Of a stretch of 57,789 nucleotides of DNA, positions 23,905-57,376 are shown in pieces. The notes beneath the pieces are model-generated. The model was not told the DNA's origin, did no database searches, and saw only the letters and a program-made list of their open reading frames with translations. The stretch comes from Salinivirgaceae bacterium. GTDB lineage: Bacteria > Bacteroidota > Bacteroidia > Bacteroidales > SZUA-534. Position 1 is the first letter of the stretch. Each line of letters opens with the position of its first letter. The position numbers and the translations under genes were made by a program. Where the stretch lies: the NCBI GenBank assembly GCA_017551905.1, contig JAFZKK010000116.1, forward strand, positions 1 to 57,789. The letters are read 5' to 3'.

Positions 23905-25023
23905 ATGAAAAATAAACTCGCTTCAGCTCTTTTGGTGTTTACCGTTGCGCTGACTTTCTGTAATTGCGAAAAAAACTCAGACTTATTGGGAAACTGGCGG
24001 ACACTCTCGTCGCTTAACGCCCGCGGACGCGGCGGCGCCACTTGCTTTGTGATAGACGATAAAGCATATATCGTTGGTGGCTCAGGTTATTACAAAACCA
24101 TTGAATATTATAAGGAGACATGGCAGTTCAACCCCGACACACGCTCGTGGACTGAGTATGCGCCTATCGACACCGCCTCGCATATCAAAGGCCGTATGAA
24201 TGGCGCCGGTTTCGCCATCAAGGGAAAAGGCTATTATGGTACCGGCTACGGAAAAGACGCCACTTATTTTAACGACTTTTATGAATTCGACCCCGAAGGA
24301 ACAACAAAAGTTCTGGATGTGAATGGCAAGGTTAAGGAACTTCCGGGTGAATGGACTGTTACCGATTCGTTCCCGGGCGGAAAAGTTACCGCAACAATCA
24401 GTTTCGCACTCAACGACATAGGATATGTAGGCACCGGTTATTCGAAAGAGCTTGGTGCTTCTAACACTTTCTATTCGTACAACCCCGACAATGCCGATGG
24501 CGAAAAATGGTCGGTTGTTGAGAATATCAACGCCGCAAAACGTCAGGGTGGCAGCGTGTTCATCATCGATGGATATGTCTATATTTTTGGCGGAGTCAAC
24601 AACGGAATAGCTGTTGAGGATTTGGAGCGTTTCAATCCGGCCGAGCCTAAAGGCGATTACCGCTGGTTCAAGATTAGCCAGGATTTGTACGATGACTATC
24701 GCCGGAGCGGTGAGCTTCAGCGTCAGCGTGCTGTGGCATTCTCGGTCAACGGACGCGGATATCTATGCTGCGGTTCGGGTTCGGCAGGTGGCGCAAAGAA
24801 CGACACTTGGGAGTATATTCCGTTTGCCGGTTCCGAAGGTCGTGGCAAGTGGATAAAAGTGGCTTCGTTCGAGGGCTCTAACCGCTACAACGCTTGCAGT
24901 TTTGTTGTCAACAATACGGCCTACGTTTTGTGCGGACAGAACGGAACAAGCGAGAGTAGCTATTACGATGATGTCTGGAGCTTTGACCCGACACAGGATT
25001 ACGACGAAAAGAAGTATAAATAA
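23905..25023 (+). CDS. Kelch-repeat lipoprotein 1
   Basis: Encodes 372 aa. The signal peptide ends in 'LTFCNC', so it is a probable lipoprotein. The rest is built of about six Kelch-like blades, each with a GG or G-x-GY turn and a closing 'tW.fnPdt..W' strand: ATCFVIDDKAYIVGG, TWQFNPDTRSWTEY, GAGFAIKGKGYYGTG, GSVFIIDGYVYIFGG. A beta-propeller on the cell surface or in the periplasm is expected, for binding rather than catalysis. A paralogue follows at 25098. A TATATTCG box at 23833-23840 may be its promoter. Confidence 0.82.
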   Translation: MKNKLASALLVFTVALTFCNCEKNSDLLGNWRTLSSLNARGRGGATCFVIDDKAYIVGGSGYYKTIEYYKETWQFNPDTRSWTEYAPIDTASHIKGRMNGAGFAIKGKGYYGTGYGKDATYFNDFYEFDPEGTTKVLDVNGKVKELPGEWTVTDSFPGGKVTATISFALNDIGYVGTGYSKELGASNTFYSYNPDNADGEKWSVVENINAAKRQGGSVFIIDGYVYIFGGVNNGIAVEDLERFNPAEPKGDYRWFKISQDLYDDYRRSGELQRQRAVAFSVNGRGYLCCGSGSAGGAKNDTWEYIPFAGSEGRGKWIKVASFEGSNRYNACSFVVNNTAYVLCGQNGTSESSYYDDVWSFDPTQDYDEKKYK

Positions 25024-25044
25024 TCAGGTTCCCTGAAACAAAAC

Positions 25045-25081
25045 CAAGGGAAATCTGTAAATATGGTTTCCCTTTGTTTTT
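25045..25081 (+). terminator. Hairpin between the two Kelch genes
   Basis: AAGGGAAA (25046-25053) pairs with TTTCCCTT (25067-25074), followed by TGTTTTTT. It could terminate or attenuate read-through from Kelch gene 1 into Kelch gene 2. Confidence 0.65.
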
Positions 25082-25097
25082 TAAAGAAACAAGGCAA

Positions 25098-26156
25098 ATG
25101 AGGAACGCACTACGTTCAATACTTTTGACGGCAGTAACGGCCGTGGCGCTTGTCGGTTGCAACGATGACGAATATCTTGGCAACTGGCTCAAAGTATCGA
25201 CTTTGAACGCCAAAGGCTGTGGCGGTTCGTCTGTTTTCAGCATCGACAACAAGGCCTATCTGGTTGCCGGTTACGGATATTATTACACCGTTAAATATTT
25301 CAACTCAACTTGGGTTTTCGACACTGAAGATTACTCGTGGACCGAAACCGACACTTTGCCCGGTGCGCCCCGCAAAGATGGTGTGGCCTTTACGATAGGT
25401 GGCAAGGGATATTACTGTGGAGGCATTGGTGCCGACGGCTCGTATTTCGGAAACATGTATGAGTTTGACCCTGAAGCTGAAAAAGGCTCAAAGTGGCGCG
25501 AGTTGGAAAACGACCCTTATCCCGATGGGGCGTTCTTTGGCGGAGTAGGCTTTGCCATTGGCGACTGCGGCTATGTGGGCGGCGGAATGAACGATAAAAC
25601 TGGGCCCACGAACAAATATTTCCGTTTCGACCCGTCGAAGCCCGAAGGCTCGCGCTGGACACAGATTGATGAGGAAGGACTTGCGGTGAAACGTTTTGGC
25701 GGCAACTCGTTTGTGATAGGCGACAAGGCTTACATTTTGGGCGGCCGGCACAACGACTACCGCGTGAAACATTTTGAATGCTACAACGCATCGACTGACG
25801 AATGGAAGGTGATAAGCGAAGACATGCTCGAGGATTACAACATCGACATGTTGTTCCGTTACAATGCATCGACATTCTCAATAGGCAACAAAGGCTACAT
25901 AACCTGCGGCGTTAAGTTCACCGGTGAGGTGCTGCGCGACACTTGGGAGTTCACTCCCGATGTCAATAACGGCAAAGGTGCCTGGCAGATGATTGCCAAA
26001 TTTGATGGCGCCAGCCGCTATTGCGCGCCCACAGCCACAATCAACGGTAGCGGATATTTGTTCTGCGGACAGAATGGCGTTGGTTCCACCAATTTTAAAG
26101 ACGATGTTTGGAAATTCAACCCTGACGAGAAGTATAATAGGAGGACATATAGATAA
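25098..26156 (+). CDS. Kelch-repeat lipoprotein 2
   Basis: Encodes 352 aa from ATG 25098; an ATG at 25074 lies inside the terminator and adds non-signal residues. The lipobox is 'LVGC'. The beta-propeller repeats parallel those of gene 1: SSVFSIDNKAYLVAGYG, TWVFDTEDYSWTET, GVAFTIGGKGYYCGG, NSFVIGDKAYILGG. Both proteins open with 'LGNW..(V)STLNA(K/R)G-GG' and end 'DDVW.F(D/N)P', so they are tandem duplicates that have diverged. The stop codon overlaps the next start (TAATG), so cvpA-like translation is coupled to it. Confidence 0.82.
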   Translation: MRNALRSILLTAVTAVALVGCNDDEYLGNWLKVSTLNAKGCGGSSVFSIDNKAYLVAGYGYYYTVKYFNSTWVFDTEDYSWTETDTLPGAPRKDGVAFTIGGKGYYCGGIGADGSYFGNMYEFDPEAEKGSKWRELENDPYPDGAFFGGVGFAIGDCGYVGGGMNDKTGPTNKYFRFDPSKPEGSRWTQIDEEGLAVKRFGGNSFVIGDKAYILGGRHNDYRVKHFECYNASTDEWKVISEDMLEDYNIDMLFRYNASTFSIGNKGYITCGVKFTGEVLRDTWEFTPDVNNGKGAWQMIAKFDGASRYCAPTATINGSGYLFCGQNGVGSTNFKDDVWKFNPDEKYNRRTYR

Positions 26157-30093: not shown

Positions 30094-30468
30094 ATGGCAC
30101 CATTAATTTTTTCGCCAACCGAGGACACTCCGGAGATATCTTTCGATTCAACAACAGGCAAAATGCTGATAGGCGGCACCTCAATCCCTGAGAACGCCCG
30201 CAAATTCTACGATAATATAATCGAGTGGATTGGCGAATATGTCAAGTCGCCGAGCGCTAACACTTCTATCGACTTCAAACTCAAATACTTCAATACAGCT
30301 TCAACCAAATATCTTTTCGATATTATGGTGCTGTTGAAAGAGATTATGAAGGCCGGAAACACGCTGGTTATCAACTGGTTTTATCAGGAAGACGACGAGG
30401 ATATGTACGAAGCCGGCATGGGTTTCTCAAAAATGCTTCGCTACCCGTTCAATTTTGTTAAATATTAA
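30094..30468 (+). CDS. SiaC-like DUF1987 regulatory phosphoprotein
   Basis: Encodes 124 aa. It matches DUF1987/SiaC throughout: SPTEDTPEISFD, the 'G(T)SIPENA(R)KFY' segment, IDFKLKYFNTASTKYLFDI, and 'WFYQEDDEDMYEAGMGFS'. In characterised systems SiaC is phosphorylated on a Thr/Ser in the equivalent of the NTASTK loop, and it controls a diguanylate cyclase or chemotaxis-type partner with the SiaA phosphatase and SiaB kinase. No siaA, siaB or cyclase gene lies nearby, so its partners must be elsewhere or different. Confidence 0.88.
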   Translation: MAPLIFSPTEDTPEISFDSTTGKMLIGGTSIPENARKFYDNIIEWIGEYVKSPSANTSIDFKLKYFNTASTKYLFDIMVLLKEIMKAGNTLVINWFYQEDDEDMYEAGMGFSKMLRYPFNFVKY

Positions 30469-30481
30469 AAACTGATTGGCG

Positions 30482-30521
30482 GAATAACTGAATGGATTGA
30501 AGGAGCTTCAATCTGTTATTC
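30482..30521. terminator. Convergent bidirectional terminator
   Basis: GATTGAAG (30495-30502) pairs with CTTCAATC (30506-30513), extended by GAATAAC (30482-30488) / GTTATTC (30515-30521). It sits between the convergent siaC-like and M14 peptidase genes and overlaps the latter's stop codon. Confidence 0.6.
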
Positions 30522-32813
30522 AATTACAACGCGCATTGCCGATGTGCGGGTTTTCACAATGTAAATACCTGTTTTGCGGATAACAAACTCTGTGTGTCCG
30601 TTGGCTGTTTTTGTGTTGATGCAGCGGCCTGCCATATCGAAGATGCGCATCGTTCCGTTGGTGTTTTCAACCACCACAGTGTTGTTTCTTACATAAATAA
30701 TAGGTGTTGCCGATTGTTCGGTAATTGAGGTTGTGTCAACAGGCGGGTTCTGTTTTGTGGTGTCGGTGGGGTTGGTTCCACCGTTGTTTTCGTTGCCGTT
30801 GTTACCGGTTCCGTTGCCATTCCCTGAATTGTTGCCCGACTCGCCGCCATTGTTATTGCCTTCGTTGCCGTTTTCATTACCGTTTCCGCCTTCGCCGTTA
30901 TTGCCGGAGTTGCCGTTCTCGGTATTGTTGCCTTGCTCGTTGCCGTTGTTTCCTTCGTTGTTATTGCCTTGATTTTCGTTTCCACCGTTATTGTTGCCGT
31001 TTTCATTACCGTTACCCGACTCGTTTCCATTTTCGGTGTTTCCGCCTTCGCCGTTGTTGCCATTTTCATTTCCATTTTCAGAACCTTGTTGGTTTTCATT
31101 GCCGCCGCCATTGTCAGGGGTGTTTTTTGCGGTAACAGCCACATTGATTGTAACACTGACGGTTCCGCCATTGGTTTGGAACAGGCATTGTGCCGAATAA
31201 TTTCCAACGCTAAGCCCCACCGAATTGACAGTCAAGCGAATGGTGTCGGTTTGTTCGGCGGCAATCTCGCCACCGTTTTTGTCGGCTGTCAGCCAGCTGA
31301 TGGTGTCGTTCTGGAGCGCGTAAAGGATGGCAACGCTATTATCGTTATGCAGCACAACGTCTATTTGAGTTGTTGTATCGGAGGTCATCTCCACTGGCAG
31401 ACAATCTGTTTCGGCCGAGAATTTTGAGAATACAACATCGAGCCACGTTGGTTGTCCGTCTTTAACCACAACATTGTCAATGGTTTTCGACGGATAGCCC
31501 TCGACAGTGAAAGTGATGTTGTAGGTTCCGGCTTTCAGGTAGCGGTGATAGTCGCCGGCGCGTGGGTCGGTTTCAATCCACGAGTTGTCCTTGTCATGTC
31601 CGTCGATAGTTATTTTAGCCAATAGTGGTTCGCCGCCCATATCGGTAACAATGCCGCGCACACCATTCAGACTTTCGCCGAAATAGTTGAGCAAGGCGTT
31701 GCGGTTGCCATCCCAGTATTTATACAGATTCTCGCTGCTTGGTGTTTTTGTGTCGCTTATTTCAAGTGTAACCTCGCGGCAGTGCATGAAATAATTTGAA
31801 TAATCTTGCTGTCCACCTACCATTGAATACCAGGAGGCTCCATATGTTAGTCCATTGTTGCAATCGGTGAAGTATCCTGAGGAGCTGTAGGCATGAACCG
31901 TATCGCAGTAGGCACGGCCAACCATTTTCCACCAATTATCATCGGCAGTACTGCGGGAGTAGCTCCAAGTGTCCCACGGATAGTTAAAACACTCGGCTCC
32001 GGCGTGTAGGCAGGCGGCAAGCGAGAAATGGTGCGCACCATAAAACTCCATAAGGGCGATGGTCTCGTCTTGACGATTATTATTGTTGGTAATGGTACCT
32101 AGTCTAATGTCCGGAAAATCTCGGTTCAAGTCCTCGCCCTTTTTATTGCTGCGCGTGGCGTTGCCTATGGTGTTGTCATCGTCCCGATACATTCCGTCGG
32201 GGTTGACAAGCGGAATAAACCACATCTCGGTGCTGTCAATCAGCCGTTTGACAGTCGGGTTGTCGTAATTGTTCAGAAGATAATCGCACATCCGCAGGGT
32301 GGTGGCCATCCCCACGCTCTCGTCGCCGTGTATGTTGGCGGAGCAAAGTATTTCCGGTTTGTCGGTTATGGTGCTGCTCACCTGCGACGATATTTTGAGC
32401 GCCAGAATCCGCCGCCCCGACTCAAGCGTGCTCAGCTCCGACAGGCTGCAAATGTCGGGATGGATTTCGGCAAACTGGTGCATCATCGAGTCATAGACGC
32501 TGTAGGTTGGGTAGCGGTCCCAGTCGGCCATCATAGCCACGGTGGTAGCCATTGCAGTGCCCTTGGCGGCATGCGGCTCGCATATTTTGTATTTGTGCTT
32601 TGTCTGGCGGAAAAGCTGCATCTCCTTCTCGTTGGCGTAAGCCCAAGCCTTGTCGCCCGACACATTGTCAATCGATATTATCCGCGAAAGACTGTCAAGC
32701 TCGCTTCTTGTGTCGAAGCGGAACGAGAAGTAATATTCGGTTGTCTGGGCCGAAAGCATTCCGCCAAACCCGAACAAAAGCATTATTAATATGTATAGCC
32801 TTCGTGCGAACAT
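30516..32813 (-). CDS. T9SS-secreted M14 zinc carboxypeptidase
   Basis: Encodes 765 aa from ATG 32813. The signal peptide ends 'LSAQ'. The peptidase M14 domain has Zn ligands H and E in NIHGDESVG, a later His in CLHAGAECFN, and a catalytic Glu in VTLEISDTKTP. A carboxypeptidase-regulatory beta domain follows (GVRGIVTDMGGEPLLAKI), then a further beta domain. A linker of ~120 residues is almost only Asn, Gly and Glu. A C-terminal type-A T9SS sorting domain completes it (RIFDMAGRCINT, then TGIYIVKT). It is expected to be a surface or extracellular exopeptidase. The linker DNA is a degenerate AAT/GGT/GAA repeat prone to length change. Confidence 0.9.
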   Translation of the reverse strand: MFARRLYILIMLLFGFGGMLSAQTTEYYFSFRFDTRSELDSLSRIISIDNVSGDKAWAYANEKEMQLFRQTKHKYKICEPHAAKGTAMATTVAMMADWDRYPTYSVYDSMMHQFAEIHPDICSLSELSTLESGRRILALKISSQVSSTITDKPEILCSANIHGDESVGMATTLRMCDYLLNNYDNPTVKRLIDSTEMWFIPLVNPDGMYRDDDNTIGNATRSNKKGEDLNRDFPDIRLGTITNNNNRQDETIALMEFYGAHHFSLAACLHAGAECFNYPWDTWSYSRSTADDNWWKMVGRAYCDTVHAYSSSGYFTDCNNGLTYGASWYSMVGGQQDYSNYFMHCREVTLEISDTKTPSSENLYKYWDGNRNALLNYFGESLNGVRGIVTDMGGEPLLAKITIDGHDKDNSWIETDPRAGDYHRYLKAGTYNITFTVEGYPSKTIDNVVVKDGQPTWLDVVFSKFSAETDCLPVEMTSDTTTQIDVVLHNDNSVAILYALQNDTISWLTADKNGGEIAAEQTDTIRLTVNSVGLSVGNYSAQCLFQTNGGTVSVTINVAVTAKNTPDNGGGNENQQGSENGNENGNNGEGGNTENGNESGNGNENGNNNGGNENQGNNNEGNNGNEQGNNTENGNSGNNGEGGNGNENGNEGNNNGGESGNNSGNGNGTGNNGNENNGGTNPTDTTKQNPPVDTTSITEQSATPIIYVRNNTVVVENTNGTMRIFDMAGRCINTKTANGHTEFVIRKTGIYIVKTRTSAMRVVIE

Positions 32814-32840
32814 AAATGTAAAGGTAGTGAAAATCAGCAA

Positions 32841-51044: not shown

Positions 51045-51965
51045 ATGCAACCAATTACCATAACAAAATCGTGTCAATTGAAAGGCGATGTTCTCACCGT
51101 CGATGGGTGCGAAGAGCCATTCGATTTTAAGGAATTGGTAGCCGACGCGTCGCTGCGCCGCCGTATGAGCCGCATTGTGAAAATGGGCGTGGCGTGCGGC
51201 TTGAAATGCGCCGAAGGTCTGGCACCCGAAACTATCGACGGCATTATAACCGCCACAGGATTGGGCTGTCTGGCTGATACAGAGAAATTTATGGAGTCGA
51301 TAGTGGTGAACAACGAGCGGCTGCTCAACCCCACACCGTTCATTCAATCAACCTTCAACACCATTGGCGGACAGATTGCCCTGCTGCGCGGAATTCACTC
51401 ATACAATGTTACTTACGTTCACCGCGGCTTGAGTTTCGAAAGCGCACTGATTGACGCCGCAATGCAAATTGCCGAAGGACGGCGCAACATTCTACTTGGC
51501 GCCGTGGATGAGATTACGCCGTCGTCAGCCGACATTCAGCGCCGCCTTGGAATGACACGCGAATACGAACTTGGCGAAGGCGCCAACTTCTTCCTAATCA
51601 ACGCCGCCACCCCTGGCCGCCACCGCCCCGCCGTGCTCGACATTGCCACCCGCTCTGGCCGCCTAACTACCGATGAAATGATTGAATGGATTGTTGAAAT
51701 AACTAAACGCAACGGCATAAAAACAAGCGATTTATGCATTTATACAAACTGCGATGACGAACTTGCGAAAACAATAGACGACAAATTTGAACCAATTTCC
51801 ATAACATTGTTTAATTATAAAAACTGTGAATATCCTACACTCTCGGCTCGCTTTCTAGATTCTGCGGCCAGCGATATGTATATTATACGCAAAGACTATA
51901 ATGTATTGATTGTGAATGATTACCAACATATAAACCATTCGCTGATTTTGTTAGGAAAAATGTAG
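51045..51965 (+). CDS. Ketosynthase-like, chain-length-factor-type protein
   Basis: Encodes 306 aa. It has the thiolase-fold N-terminal half of a ketosynthase: 'IDGIITATGLGCLADTEKF', then 'YNVTYVHRGLSFESALIDAA'. The nucleophilic Cys position reads Gly (GLSFE), and no HGTAT or GHTLG motif is seen, so it should not condense by itself. By position and sequence it resembles the chain-length-factor/ApeC-like partner that forms a heterodimer with an active KS in polyene pathways. The last ~80 residues are AT-rich with no known motif. Confidence 0.72.
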   Translation: MQPITITKSCQLKGDVLTVDGCEEPFDFKELVADASLRRRMSRIVKMGVACGLKCAEGLAPETIDGIITATGLGCLADTEKFMESIVVNNERLLNPTPFIQSTFNTIGGQIALLRGIHSYNVTYVHRGLSFESALIDAAMQIAEGRRNILLGAVDEITPSSADIQRRLGMTREYELGEGANFFLINAATPGRHRPAVLDIATRSGRLTTDEMIEWIVEITKRNGIKTSDLCIYTNCDDELAKTIDDKFEPISITLFNYKNCEYPTLSARFLDSAASDMYIIRKDYNVLIVNDYQHINHSLILLGKM

Positions 51966-52703: not shown

Positions 52704-53333
52704 ATGAAACGTTTTTTGATAATCATCGTTATTAGCGCCACGGCAGGTCAGCTTTTCGCGCAAATGCACCCCATAACCGACCTTGCCGATTTCGAGAACC
52801 GCCTGAAAACCAGCGTGTCGGCATTGAAAACCATAGAGAGCGATTTTGAACAGATAAAGCACCTCGATATGTTTGACGAGGATGTGCGCTCAACCGGCAA
52901 ATTCGCCTACATGACCGAGAACAAGATTTATATGCACTATGCCAAACCGCTTGACTATCTGGTTGTTATAAATGACGGGAAGCTAAAAATGGTGTCGGAC
53001 GGCAAAAAGAGCATTGTGGCGCTGAACACCAACAAGATAATGGCCGGAATGCAGGATATGATAACCGCTTGCATGGTTGGCGATTTGAACCGCATGAAAG
53101 ACGGCTACAGTATTGATTATCAGGAGAATGAAAAATTCTATCAGGTTACTATAACTCCAAAAAGCCAGACCGTCCGCGACTATGTGGACAAAATCCGTCT
53201 GTTGCTCAGCAAGGCAAATATGTCGGTGAGCGAGTTGTATATGTTTGAAAATGAGGACGATTACACACGATACATTTTCAGCAACCAGCGCTTCAATCAG
53301 CTTAAAGACGATGGCATCTTCAGTGTTCAATAA
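52704..53333 (+). CDS. LolA-like outer-membrane lipoprotein carrier
   Basis: Encodes 209 aa. The signal peptide ends 'LFAQ'. The LolA-type incomplete beta-barrel pattern is seen: 'SALKTIESDFEQIKHLDMF', 'STGKFAYMTENKIYMHYAKPL' and 'VINDGKLKMVSDGKK'. LolA homologues in aryl-polyene-type clusters are thought to shuttle the lipid product to the outer membrane, which fits here. The last 23 bp overlap the next gene. Confidence 0.82.
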   Translation: MKRFLIIIVISATAGQLFAQMHPITDLADFENRLKTSVSALKTIESDFEQIKHLDMFDEDVRSTGKFAYMTENKIYMHYAKPLDYLVVINDGKLKMVSDGKKSIVALNTNKIMAGMQDMITACMVGDLNRMKDGYSIDYQENEKFYQVTITPKSQTVRDYVDKIRLLLSKANMSVSELYMFENEDDYTRYIFSNQRFNQLKDDGIFSVQ

Positions 53334-53811
53334 GGCGATTCTGATTCTGATTATTTGTTTTTCAGCCGTTTACTGTGCGGCGCAACCCGTTTTTACTCCC
53401 AACAAAACCGACAAATACAACATTCAGATTGATGCCCGAGGCAGCCACTTGAGCGGAATGTTGATAGCCCGCCCCACAAACGACGGTCCGCGCACGGTTG
53501 TGGCCTCATACATCGGTCCAACGCTTTTCGACTACACCTTGACAGCCGACTCGCTGCGCGTGAACACTAGTGCGGCGCCGCTGCGACGCAAAAAGCTGGA
53601 ACAGTTGCTCGACAACGATTTACGCATCGTCTTCATCGACGAGAGCCGCGCTAAACTAACGAGCCGGACCGCCACAACCCGAAAACGCAAAAGCGGACAT
53701 CTGTTCGAAAAAACTGTGGTGCAGATAAACGCCGATGCCAATCAAAACATTGAAACAGTAACAATTAAGCATCCGCTGATAAGGTTGAAATTAACAATCA
53801 ATCGCCTTTAA
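53311..53811 (+). CDS. Secreted protein of polyene-like cluster
   Basis: Encodes 166 aa from ATG 53311, inside the end of the LolA-like gene in another frame; the longer frame from 53245 lacks a signal peptide. The signal peptide is ILILIICFSAVYCAAQ, with Cys in 'VYC' just before the cut site. The mature part has 'HLSGMLIARPTNDGPRTVVASYIGPTLFDYTL', recalling the outer-membrane-associated DUF3261-type proteins found beside LolA in aryl-polyene clusters. That assignment is tentative. Last gene of the cluster. Confidence 0.65.
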   Translation: MASSVFNKAILILIICFSAVYCAAQPVFTPNKTDKYNIQIDARGSHLSGMLIARPTNDGPRTVVASYIGPTLFDYTLTADSLRVNTSAAPLRRKKLEQLLDNDLRIVFIDESRAKLTSRTATTRKRKSGHLFEKTVVQINADANQNIETVTIKHPLIRLKLTINRL

Positions 53812-53894
53812 TCAACTTATAACCTAAAACCAAAACCTTATAACTTTTAACTTATCACTTAAAATCATATCTTTACCCTGTTAAACCTACATCG

Positions 53895-55187
53895 ATGAAA
53901 AGGATTCTAATTCTGATAGCAGTTGCGGTGATGCTTGCCGGTTGCCAGCACAAGGAGCACGCCGACCTGATAATTCACAACGCCAAGATTTATTCCGTCA
54001 ACAACAATTTCTCGGTAATGCAGAGCGCGGCCATCTGCGACGGGCGGTTTGTGGCAGTCAGTAGCGACGCCATTATCAAAGCCCGCTACTATTCCGACAA
54101 TGTTGTCGATATGCAGGGCAAATATGTGTTTCCGGCGTTCATCGACTCGCACTCGCGGTTCTTGGATTACGCCTTTTCGTTGGCCGACAGCGCGCAGGGA
54201 CAGCTCTCGGAATCGCAGAAGGCTGAACTTTTGAAGAAAGCCGAAAAGCGTTGTTTTTCAATGGGAATATCCACGGTTACCGATTTCGGCGCTTCATATA
54301 ACAATGTCAAACTTATTGACAGTCTGCAACAAAAAGGAGAACTGATGTTGTCGGTTTATGCTGTTTTGGAGCCATCGGCCGAGAATATCAGTCACTATAT
54401 CAGCCGCATGCCGTATCACACCAACAAGCTGAAAGTGATTTCGGTAGGCGTCAATCTTGATGGCGGTTTGGCTTCGCAAGAGGCTGTCCTTTTGTCGCCA
54501 TATACCGACAACACTAACGGCCGTTTGCTGGCGAGCGCCGATAGTCTGGAGCGCATCTGCAGTATGGCTTACAACAACGGTTTCCAGATGTGTGTTGGTT
54601 GTGTGGGCGACTCCGCGGCGCGCGTGGCTCTGAAGACCTTTGCCAACATTCTGCCGCGTAAAAACAGCGCCCGCTGGCGTGTCGAAAACCTGCAAATGAC
54701 CAGCAAGCGCGATTTGCGCTTCATATCGCACTACAACATTCTGCCAATGGTGATACCAGCAAGCTATGCCAACACACGCGAGAAACTGCCGTCGATTTTG
54801 TCGAAAAAGCAGATACGCGAGACTTTTGCGTGGAAGAAAATACTGGGGCAGAATCAGGGCATATTGTGCGGCATAAACGCGCCCGACGAGCCGATTAACC
54901 CCATGCGGACGATGTACTCGGCCATGCGGCAGGAGAAACAGAAGCTGCGCAACAAACAAGGGCAGGAGATGACTTCGGTTCAGGCGCTTAAGGCGATGAC
55001 AATATGGGCGGCATACGCGCAATTCGACGAGGAGAACAAAGGCAGCATCGAGGTGGGCAAGAACGCCGATTTTATTGTCACAAACGAGAATCTGACCACA
55101 ATGTACAAGCCATACCTTCCTGATGTGAAGATTGTTAGCACCTATTTGTGCGGACAAAAGGTGTACGATATAACCCAAGGCGAATAA
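53895..55187 (+). CDS. Amidohydrolase-like lipoprotein lacking its metal ligands
   Basis: Encodes 430 aa. Lipobox 'LAGC' (C18). The fold matches the YtcJ/amidohydrolase-3 family: 'ADLIIHNAKIYSVNNNF', 'VVDMQGKYVFPAFIDSH' and the C-terminal 'ALKAMTIWAAYAQF', 'GSIEVGKNADFIV'. Every expected metal position is changed: HxH reads HSR (DSHSRF), HAIGD reads VGCVGDSA, RIEHAQ reads RVENLQ, and SDAPV reads INAPDE. At 430 aa it is also ~100 shorter than active relatives. It is probably a non-catalytic binding protein at the cell envelope. There are no frameshifts, so it is under selection as a protein rather than decaying. Confidence 0.82.
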   Translation: MKRILILIAVAVMLAGCQHKEHADLIIHNAKIYSVNNNFSVMQSAAICDGRFVAVSSDAIIKARYYSDNVVDMQGKYVFPAFIDSHSRFLDYAFSLADSAQGQLSESQKAELLKKAEKRCFSMGISTVTDFGASYNNVKLIDSLQQKGELMLSVYAVLEPSAENISHYISRMPYHTNKLKVISVGVNLDGGLASQEAVLLSPYTDNTNGRLLASADSLERICSMAYNNGFQMCVGCVGDSAARVALKTFANILPRKNSARWRVENLQMTSKRDLRFISHYNILPMVIPASYANTREKLPSILSKKQIRETFAWKKILGQNQGILCGINAPDEPINPMRTMYSAMRQEKQKLRNKQGQEMTSVQALKAMTIWAAYAQFDEENKGSIEVGKNADFIVTNENLTTMYKPYLPDVKIVSTYLCGQKVYDITQGE

Positions 55188-55199
55188 ATACTGTCGGCC

Positions 55200-56141
55200 A
55201 TGAGTAAAAAGTGGTTGACAATCATAAAGATAGTTGTGGCGTGTGCGGCTTTTGCGTTTATTGTTTTCCGCATAAAGGAGCAAATAGAAAAGGGCGCCGG
55301 CTTGCGGATAACCGATTTTAAATTGTTGCCGATGCTTGCCGCCGTAGCTCTGATGCCTCTCAATTATTTAATTGAAAGCTTTAAATGGCAGAATCTTTTA
55401 GTTAATATACAGCGACTTAAAATTTGGCAAGCGGCTAAGTCGGTGCTGGCAGGGCTTGCAGCCTCAATGGTGACACCAAACCGCATTGGCGACTTTGCCG
55501 GACGCATAATGATGCTCAGTACCGGCAACCGCGCCGCCGGCACAATGGCCTCGTTTGTAGGCAGTTGCGCACAGATGCTTGTTATTGCCTCGTTTGGAGT
55601 TGTGGCGTTTGCTTTCAACATCGAGCTTCCCCGTCAGCTGCAAATTTTTCAAGACAATCATTTGCTGACTCTTATAACGCTTATAATTATACTGATAGCC
55701 GCAGTTATCTTATTCTTTAATATAAGCCAAATGGCTGTCAAAATCAGAATCAAGCGTATCGATGTTCTGAAAAACTTTGTTGAGGCTATGGGGTTGTATC
55801 GGGCAAAGCATTTGGCAATGGTTTTGACCATTTCGGCTGTGCGCTATGTGGTTTTCGCCATTCAGTTTTACCTTGTCATTCAGTCGTTTGGCATCGACCT
55901 TGACCTTCTGACGGGGCTGTGCGCCATTGCTTTCATCTATTGCTTTGTGACCATTGTGCCCACGTTTGCCTTGGCTGAATGGGGTGTCCGTGGTTCGGCG
56001 GCGTTGTTCTTTCTGTCGCCTTTTGGAGGCTCGGCTGTCGCCATAATGTGGGCAACCATTGCCGTGTGGCTTATAAACATCGGGCTGCCGGCTTTGGCAG
56101 GAGCGGTGGTTATGCTCAAAAGCGCCAATCAGTCTTCGTAA
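55200..56141 (+). CDS. LPG-synthase-TM/UPF0104 family membrane protein
   Basis: Encodes 313 aa with about 8 TM helices. The lysylphosphatidylglycerol_synthase_TM/UPF0104 pattern is present: 'NYLIESFKWQNLL', 'SVLAGLAASMVTPNRIGDFAGR', 'GTMASFVGSCAQMLVI' and a C-terminal 'ALAEWGVRGSAALFF'. Members are proposed lipid or lipid-linked-glycan flippases, and some carry a synthase domain not present here. The gene starts 12 bp after the amidohydrolase-like gene and its 3' end overlaps the opposite-strand queC by 13 bp. Confidence 0.85.
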   Translation: MSKKWLTIIKIVVACAAFAFIVFRIKEQIEKGAGLRITDFKLLPMLAAVALMPLNYLIESFKWQNLLVNIQRLKIWQAAKSVLAGLAASMVTPNRIGDFAGRIMMLSTGNRAAGTMASFVGSCAQMLVIASFGVVAFAFNIELPRQLQIFQDNHLLTLITLIIILIAAVILFFNISQMAVKIRIKRIDVLKNFVEAMGLYRAKHLAMVLTISAVRYVVFAIQFYLVIQSFGIDLDLLTGLCAIAFIYCFVTIVPTFALAEWGVRGSAALFFLSPFGGSAVAIMWATIAVWLINIGLPALAGAVVMLKSANQSS

Positions 56142-56782
56142 ACGGTCGTATCCTCGATGCTGGCAAGCCGCAGAGCCTCGCGCCGTTCGACGCAGGTGCC
56201 GCATTTGCCGCAGTGCACCTTTCCGCCTTTGTAGCATGACCACGTTTCGGCATAATCAATCTTCAAGAGTTTGCCTCGCCGCGCAATGTCGGCTTTGGTG
56301 ATGTTGGTATAGGGAGCAAGAATCCGAGCGTTGTTGTAGGTGCCGTTGCTAATAGCCGCATCCATGGCCGAAATAAACTCCGGGCGGCAGTCGGGGTATA
56401 TGGTGTGGTCGCCGGCGTGGTTTGCAATCATGACATACTGCAGACCGTTGTTCTCGGCCAGTCCGGCAGCTACTGCCAGCATTATGCCGTTGCGGAAAGG
56501 CACCACCGTTGAGCGCATGTTGTCGTCGTTGTAATGGCCTTCGGGCACGGCGTCGGCACCTGCCAGCAACGATGAGTTGAAATATCGCTCGATGAAATCG
56601 AGAGGGATAATCAGGTGCTGAATGCCAAGCCGCTCGCAATGGAGCTTGGCAAACGCCAGCTCGCGGTCGTTGTGGTTGCTGCCGTAGTGGAACGATACCG
56701 CCATTGCAATGCGCTCGCGATATTCGTAAAGCATCGTTGTACTGTCAAGTCCGCCCGATAGAACTATTATGGAGTCTTTCAT
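56129..56782 (-). CDS. queC: 7-cyano-7-deazaguanine synthase QueC
   Basis: Encodes 217 aa. The PP-loop ATP-binding motif is SGGLDSTT. 'MRSTVVPFRNGIMLAVAAGLAE' is typical of QueC. The C-terminal zinc site is formed by Cys residues in WSCYKGGKVHCGKCGTC. It converts 7-carboxy-7-deazaguanine to preQ0 with ammonia and ATP, in queuosine (or deazaguanine DNA modification) synthesis. The local setting suggests the tRNA pathway only by default, since no DNA-modification genes adjoin it. A CACCTTTG box upstream is a weak promoter candidate. Confidence 0.94.
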   Translation of the reverse strand: MKDSIIVLSGGLDSTTMLYEYRERIAMAVSFHYGSNHNDRELAFAKLHCERLGIQHLIIPLDFIERYFNSSLLAGADAVPEGHYNDDNMRSTVVPFRNGIMLAVAAGLAENNGLQYVMIANHAGDHTIYPDCRPEFISAMDAAISNGTYNNARILAPYTNITKADIARRGKLLKIDYAETWSCYKGGKVHCGKCGTCVERREALRLASIEDTTVYED

Positions 56783-57376
56783 TTTTCGGTGTGTTTAAGT
56801 GATGCAAAGGTGCAAAAAAAGATAATGCTGACGCTGACGATAACACTGACGATGACGATAACTAAAACGAAAACACTGACGCTGACACTGACGCTGACAC
56901 TAACACTAACGAAACCGTATTTTTTCGGACGTGGCAATGCCGCGTCCCTACATAGTACAGACGTGCCATGGCGCGTCTCTACAGATTAAACATTAATCAT
57001 TAAACACTAAACTCTTACCTCTAAACTTTTAACTTATCACTTATGCCTTATGCCTTGTCACTTATCACTTATGCCTCATCACTTATAACAAATCACTTTT
57101 TTCATCAATCATTAACCATTAATCATTCTTTTTTCTATATTTCGCAGTTTTTTGACGTAGCAACCCAAACGATGAAGAAAAACTATTAAAACGATAACCA
57201 AAAACGATAACGATAACATTGACGAAAACATTGACGAAAACACTGACACTGACGCTAACGTAAACTGAAAACTTAAACGTAAACAACTTATGCCTTGTCA
57301 CTTGTAACTTATAACTTATAACTTTCCATCTTATAACTTTAAAAACTCAGAACTTACAACTAAAAAATCAAATAAC
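56783..57376 (+). repeat. 594-bp repeat field, no gene
   Basis: Contains an ACTGACG/ACGATAACG array (about 56820-56912), palindromes at 56927-56947 (arms GGACGTGGCA / TGCCGCGTCC) and 56959-56978 (AGACGTGCCATGGCGCGTCT), 'TTATCACTTATGCC' words, a second array of ACGATAACG/ACTGACG (57189-57265), and more words up to the gene at 57377. About 130 bp from 56913 is nearly identical to 22319 onward. I see no RNA gene. Confidence 0.8.

Follow-up and report, generated by a model that had tools for sequence, protein, structure and literature searches.

A lipid-anchored YtcJ-type amidohydrolase relative that has lost its metal site and is probably maintained as a pseudoenzyme in a Salinivirgaceae bacterium

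Among the YtcJ-like hydrolases of the Pfam family Amidohydro_3 (PF07969), the solved structures 3igh and 3icj belong to uncharacterized YtcJ-type metal-dependent hydrolases, while essential residues have been described for the metalloBSH of Bilophila wadsworthia, an active, secreted member of the family with an extra C-terminal domain. In this enzyme, Ala at any of the positions H110, H112, K373, H441, H474, and D583 kills activity, and Ala at a seventh His, H196, likewise abolishes it (PMC13081902). Inactive relatives are known from elsewhere in the amidohydrolase fold. The CRMPs, which are eukaryotic, cytosolic, and derived from dihydropyrimidinase, are pseudoenzymes that function by binding proteins, and CRMP-4 keeps two of the six metal residues, with Leu in the place of the bridging Lys (PMC4051505). 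The pseudo-dihydroorotase of Pseudomonas, a cytosolic partner of aspartate transcarbamylase, and fungal CAD-like proteins are inactive amidohydrolase relatives kept for complex assembly (PMC4581275). In the literature that we searched, with partial coverage, we found no description of a YtcJ-type pseudoenzyme lipoprotein.

We analyzed a stretch of 57,789 nucleotides from a Salinivirgaceae bacterium (assembly GCA_017551905.1, contig JAFZKK010000116.1, here called the window), in which one gene encodes such a candidate (Table 1). Its reading frame is open throughout, and the product matched the Amidohydro_3 profile with 118 bits (cut-off, 29.7); the closest solved structures by sequence were 3igh (E value of 2e-21) and 3icj. 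The window protein shares with the YtcJ-like hydrolases the order of its domains, the motifs of the barrel, and a composite sandwich formed by the N and C termini, but differs from them in the replacement of most metal ligands, the loss of the substrate loops, and the deletion of the insert His. It also differs from the CRMPs, which have no insert deletion, and from the pseudo-dihydroorotase in being a lipoprotein. The lipobox Cys17 was invariant across all 18 aligned family members, and the outer membrane is its probable location. Since the mature N terminus, CQHKEH, does not fit the export signal C-X-K-(D/E)2-X of surface lipoproteins (PMC5080379), a weak test because this signal differs among species, the periplasmic side seems more likely than the cell surface. 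A single-sequence AlphaFold model reached a mean pLDDT of 35, so alignments are the basis both for the strand assignment and for how the short form, described below, would fold. PADLOC gave no match that would suggest an anti-phage defense role, no relatives of the protein were found on viral contigs, and the contig scan for relatives returned a single, uninformative match of 15 residues, to Paenibacillus. Scanning positions 53300 to 56800 for sigma-70-type promoters and terminators gave nothing telling, in an organism group that uses other promoters.

Table 1. Coordinates, within the window, of the amidohydrolase-like gene, its altered sites, and the neighboring genes discussed
Feature	Position	Strand	Remark
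SiaC-family gene	30094..30468	+	Remnant of ancestral neighborhood
M14 zinc carboxypeptidase	30516..32840	-	Second member of ancestral neighborhood
LolA2 of flexirubin-type clusters, upstream	52704..53333	+	NF053544, 203 bits (cut-off, 125)
LolB2-like, directly upstream	53245..53811	+	NF053540, 49 bits (under cut-off of 60); start codon uncertain
ORF	53895..55187	+	430-aa YtcJ/Amidohydro_3-type lipoprotein, metal site not intact
Lipoprotein signal peptide and lipobox (residues 1-17, VMLAGC)	53895..53945	+	LPAM_1, 18.7 bits, just below cut-off
HxH motif, H86-S-R88	54150..54158	+	Second His gone; R-S-H in sister species
Joint (residues ~97-111)	54183..54227	+	YtcJ insert with its catalytic His missing, ~97-101 aa
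G185	54447..54449	+	Replaces bridging (carboxylated) strand-4 Lys
G235	54597..54599	+	Replaces strand-5 His
N265	54687..54689	+	Replaces strand-6 His
N328	54876..54878	+	Replaces strand-8 Asp
Polar patch QxKxxxxNKQxQ (residues 346-357)	54930..54965	+	Newly conserved in pseudoenzyme genus; candidate new interface
LPG_synthase_TM (flippase-like) membrane protein	55200..56141	+	13 nt downstream

Metal ligand positions were assigned with the intact relatives as reference. The sequence-only reading of this gene had listed four altered motifs in an intact, lipid-anchored protein, and both points stand: all motifs were found as quoted (D84-S-H86-S-R88, V234-G-C-V-G-D239, R262-V-E-N-L-Q267, and I327-N-A-P330), and the frame and lipobox are in place. 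Its claim that all ligands are replaced has to be narrowed to five of the six (R88, G185, G235, N265, and N328), with H86 alone kept (sister species keep the second His and have Arg as the first), and the list had overlooked both the bridging Lys and the large deletion that removes a further catalytic His. We rejected the idea that ligands are preserved at shifted positions: no alignment column is ambiguous, and the Lys-to-Asp distance differs by at most 2 residues. Around the pocket, positions invariant in the enzymes have disappeared together (K185, the ADGALGSRG loop, H235, H265, and the H-x-T-S-D-M-x-W loop), and most of the residues that are new there are small or hydrophobic (V234, G235, L266, G322, and A329). 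Structural positions are retained (G124, G238-D239, N257, R260-W261-R262, W371, and G383). For the comparison with metalloBSH, H196 was equated with the His of the DGHAA motif in intact relatives by motif order and spacing rather than by aligning the Bilophila sequence; on that match, the window protein retains one of the seven essential residues (H86) and lacks the other six.

The deletion removed ca. 97 to 101 residues after strand 1, including the catalytic His that corresponds to H196. The spacing from HxH to Lys is 97 residues in the window protein, compared to 194 to 195 in congeners and 208 in intact enzymes. Dihydroorotase, hydantoinase, phosphotriesterase, and other plain amidohydrolases have a spacing of ca. 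84 to 112. We infer that the YtcJ insert was excised, leaving the core barrel and restoring the spacing of plain amidohydrolases, because insert-free models of non-YtcJ families (PRK09237, D-hydantoinase, Xaa-Pro dipeptidase, and PhnM) span the joint in the short proteins and stop there in the long ones, and the alignment to PDB 3feq also runs across it. The possibility that a barrel strand was lost with the deletion was dropped, since the plain amidohydrolase models continue through the joint.

To place these losses, homologues were searched in 20 genomes of the same family and 393 of the order (E value cut-off of 1e-60 for the order, with part of the matches read), and 104 homologues were examined. 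The complete set HHHKHHD (six ligands plus the seventh His) was present in 92 of 92 homologues outside two genera and in 0 of 12 inside them, a contrast that chance cannot account for. The listing of ligands proposed by the sequence-only reading confirmed the loss. The 12 proteins, from the window genus and one sister genus, form one clade (bootstrap/SH-aLRT of 100/100), and the Lys, the two distal His, and the seventh His are missing from all of them. Eight other congeners have full-length proteins (ca. 526 aa) that kept HxH in all cases (8/8) and have lost the Lys, the His of strands 5 and 6, and the His of the insert, while the strand-8 Asp is kept in three of them and is otherwise Asn. The sister genus (g5, a single genome) reads NAH, F, A, N, and E. 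Its homologue (G007; L045, 8055-9638) has a different pattern of ligand loss and, with 1.36, the longest terminal branch in the tree. The short form is found in the window species and in two others, G012 and G014 (79% identity), and each short-form lineage has lost one His of HxH, but not the same one (HSR in the window species, RSH in G012 and G014). Thus, the losses of Lys, His5, His6, and insert His are old and common to the clade, and the HxH change and the deletion are confined to the three-species branch. The description of four independent losses was wrong, since most of them are common to one clade of two genera. A sequencing or assembly error was rejected because the same short, ligand-poor form occurs in two further species. 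At the order level, a YtcJ-type homologue was present in ca. 37% of the 393 genomes (E value of 1e-60) and was intact wherever examined outside the clade.

This distribution also bears on whether the protein could still be an enzyme, either a metal-free or single-metal hydrolase or one with another activity that uses the rebuilt pocket. The HxH kept in every full-length congener, together with the Asp in three, the GDS and other near-pocket residues that remain invariant, and the residual activity suggested for CRMP-3 in its altered pocket (PMC4051505) would all agree with such an activity. However, the window protein has one ligand His left and the insert His deleted, each at a position essential in metalloBSH (PMC13081902), and the residues that have newly appeared in its pocket are in the main small or hydrophobic. 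HxH itself is not needed, because it was lost in differing ways (HSR, RSH, and the NAH of the sister genus). We therefore regard a remaining enzymatic activity as very unlikely.

None of these genomes, from the window species or its relatives, contains an intact copy. An intact paralog elsewhere in the genome was ruled out, the sole other PF07969 match reading as a dihydroorotase-like protein that has HxH, Lys, and His residues of its own. The ligand-less gene was retained in 11 of the 11 genomes searched in the genus. It is not indispensable, since it is absent from two of the family's seven genera. The clade could also derive from an old paralog or a transferred gene that replaced the enzyme of the family, instead of being its vertical descendant. 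The long stem branch (0.90 changes per site) and the different neighbors, SiaC beside the pseudoenzymes and YjbR or others beside the enzymes, would fit this origin, but both forms occur together in no genome of the family, and in the tree, which is unrooted, the clade attaches beside the enzymes of the same family. We consider a replacement unlikely, and the question is one of history that leaves the function unaffected.

Selection was estimated with pairwise codon models (GY94 with F3x4, in a script of our own). Omega was 0.11 between the window species and G014 and 0.135 between G014 and G012 (dS of 0.10; LRT of 38 against omega = 1), within the range of the neighbor genes (0.03 to 0.34). 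Throughout the clade, full-length congeners included, values lay between 0.05 and 0.15. The LRT against omega = 1 ranged from 38 to 223, one unsaturated pair had 30 synonymous and 9 non-synonymous codon differences, and no stop codons or frameshifts appeared in any of the 12 species. With the metal site gone and purifying selection preserved, omega values of 0.11 to 0.14, like those of working neighbor genes, indicate a maintained pseudoenzyme and not decay, in agreement with the selected pseudoenzyme that the sequence-only reading had proposed and with the dN/dS check that it had suggested. Neutral decay was rejected by the same values. That the gene is slowly decaying and still unbroken is extremely improbable; the fast protein evolution of the clade, the large deletion, and the two genera without a copy speak for it, but it conflicts with frames open in all 12 species and with the low omega. 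Some relaxation is nevertheless real, because the amount of change in the clade since the split is ca. three to four times that in the intact relatives (1.8 to 2.3 versus 0.46 to 0.64 changes per site). The most conserved segments are those of the N- and C-terminal beta-sandwich (93% and 89%, respectively). Within the genus, 22 positions have become newly invariant, six of them inside residues 346 to 357 (permutation P of 0.002). As a rough control, since the clades are unequal in size and depth, six intact family members show seven newly invariant positions.

The gene lies 84 nt past the LolB2-like gene, on the same strand as LPG_synthase_TM, with ketosynthases, a deacetylase, and LolA2 upstream, and the arrangement is the same in G012 and G014. 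The third ketosynthase-like gene of the window (51045-51965, Ketoacyl-synt_2) evolves much faster than the genes around it, with 56% identity to its G014 counterpart compared to 79 to 98% for the other genes, and the region of its usual active-site Cys reads VTYVHRG, with no Cys. In G014 and G012 (L065 and L066), the LPG_synthase_TM neighbor is a few codons shorter, with a TAG within the aligned stretch. The amidohydrolase gene of the sister genus and of the eight other congeners is found beside a SiaC-family gene, with the M14 carboxypeptidase also nearby in five congeners, and LolA2 and LPG_synthase_TM are located at separate places in the other congeners. The SiaC and M14 pair of the window, 23 kb away, has no amidohydrolase gene beside it. 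Compared with G016 (L034), the pair has the opposite orientation with respect to the tyrosyl-tRNA synthetase gene. Elsewhere in the window (23905-26156), two adjoining genes look like a tandem duplicate, since both match one G016 protein (61% and 40% identity).

The position beside the flexirubin/aryl-polyene LolA2-LolB2 genes, a linkage present in 3 of the 11 genomes of the genus, is thus a recent move restricted to three species. The adjacency to a polyene cluster pointed out earlier is real, but as a basis for envelope binding it is weak, as eight congeners and the remaining family members have the gene elsewhere, and a neighborhood this recent cannot explain the retention of the protein across the clade. 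For the window species, G012, and G014, it may still be relevant, because LolA2/LolB2 have been proposed as carriers of pigment precursors or of lipoproteins of the locus (PMC11885536). A component of the flexirubin/aryl-polyene pathway, either a lipoprotein delivered by LolA2/LolB2 or one that keeps the pigment, or a precursor of it, at the outer membrane, would account for the tight spacing on one strand in the three species, from LolB2 on one side to LPG_synthase_TM on the other. However, the other eight congeners have both the pseudoenzyme and the LolA2 locus, but apart, so the role of the pseudoenzyme arose without the LolA2 linkage, and we hold a pathway component to be distinctly unlikely. 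The narrower proposal that the LolA2/LolB2 system of flexirubin transport recruited the barrel in the three species as its dedicated cargo lipoprotein or partner is a long shot.

Taken together, the protein is probably a lipid-anchored pseudoenzyme that descends from a dinuclear-metal YtcJ-type amidohydrolase lipoprotein and acts by binding a partner and not by catalysis, in the manner of the CRMPs and pseudo-dihydroorotases. A non-catalytic scaffold or binding lipoprotein in the outer membrane is the most economical account and our best reading of the data. The metal centre and the surrounding pocket were lost in the common ancestor of the window genus and the sister genus, with fold-level residues kept meanwhile by purifying selection. 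On the three-species branch, the YtcJ insert with the seventh His is missing, and the gene lies in a flexirubin/aryl-polyene-type operon and no longer in its older neighborhood. The remaining barrel and composite beta-sandwich are predicted to point from the outer membrane into the periplasm and to bind a protein or a lipid/glycan, for which the loop at residues 346 to 357 would be the first candidate contact.

An annotation based on profiles only would name all these genes amidohydrolases. Should the recruitment by the LolA2/LolB2 system be true, the protein would be the first known client of a specialized Lol pathway and a pseudoenzyme made through excision of the YtcJ insert. The homologues form a natural series in single copy, from the intact enzyme to a full-length form without the metal site and on to a short form that lacks the insert, with purifying selection acting on each, so exchanging the forms among close relatives becomes a direct way to test what keeps dead enzymes alive.
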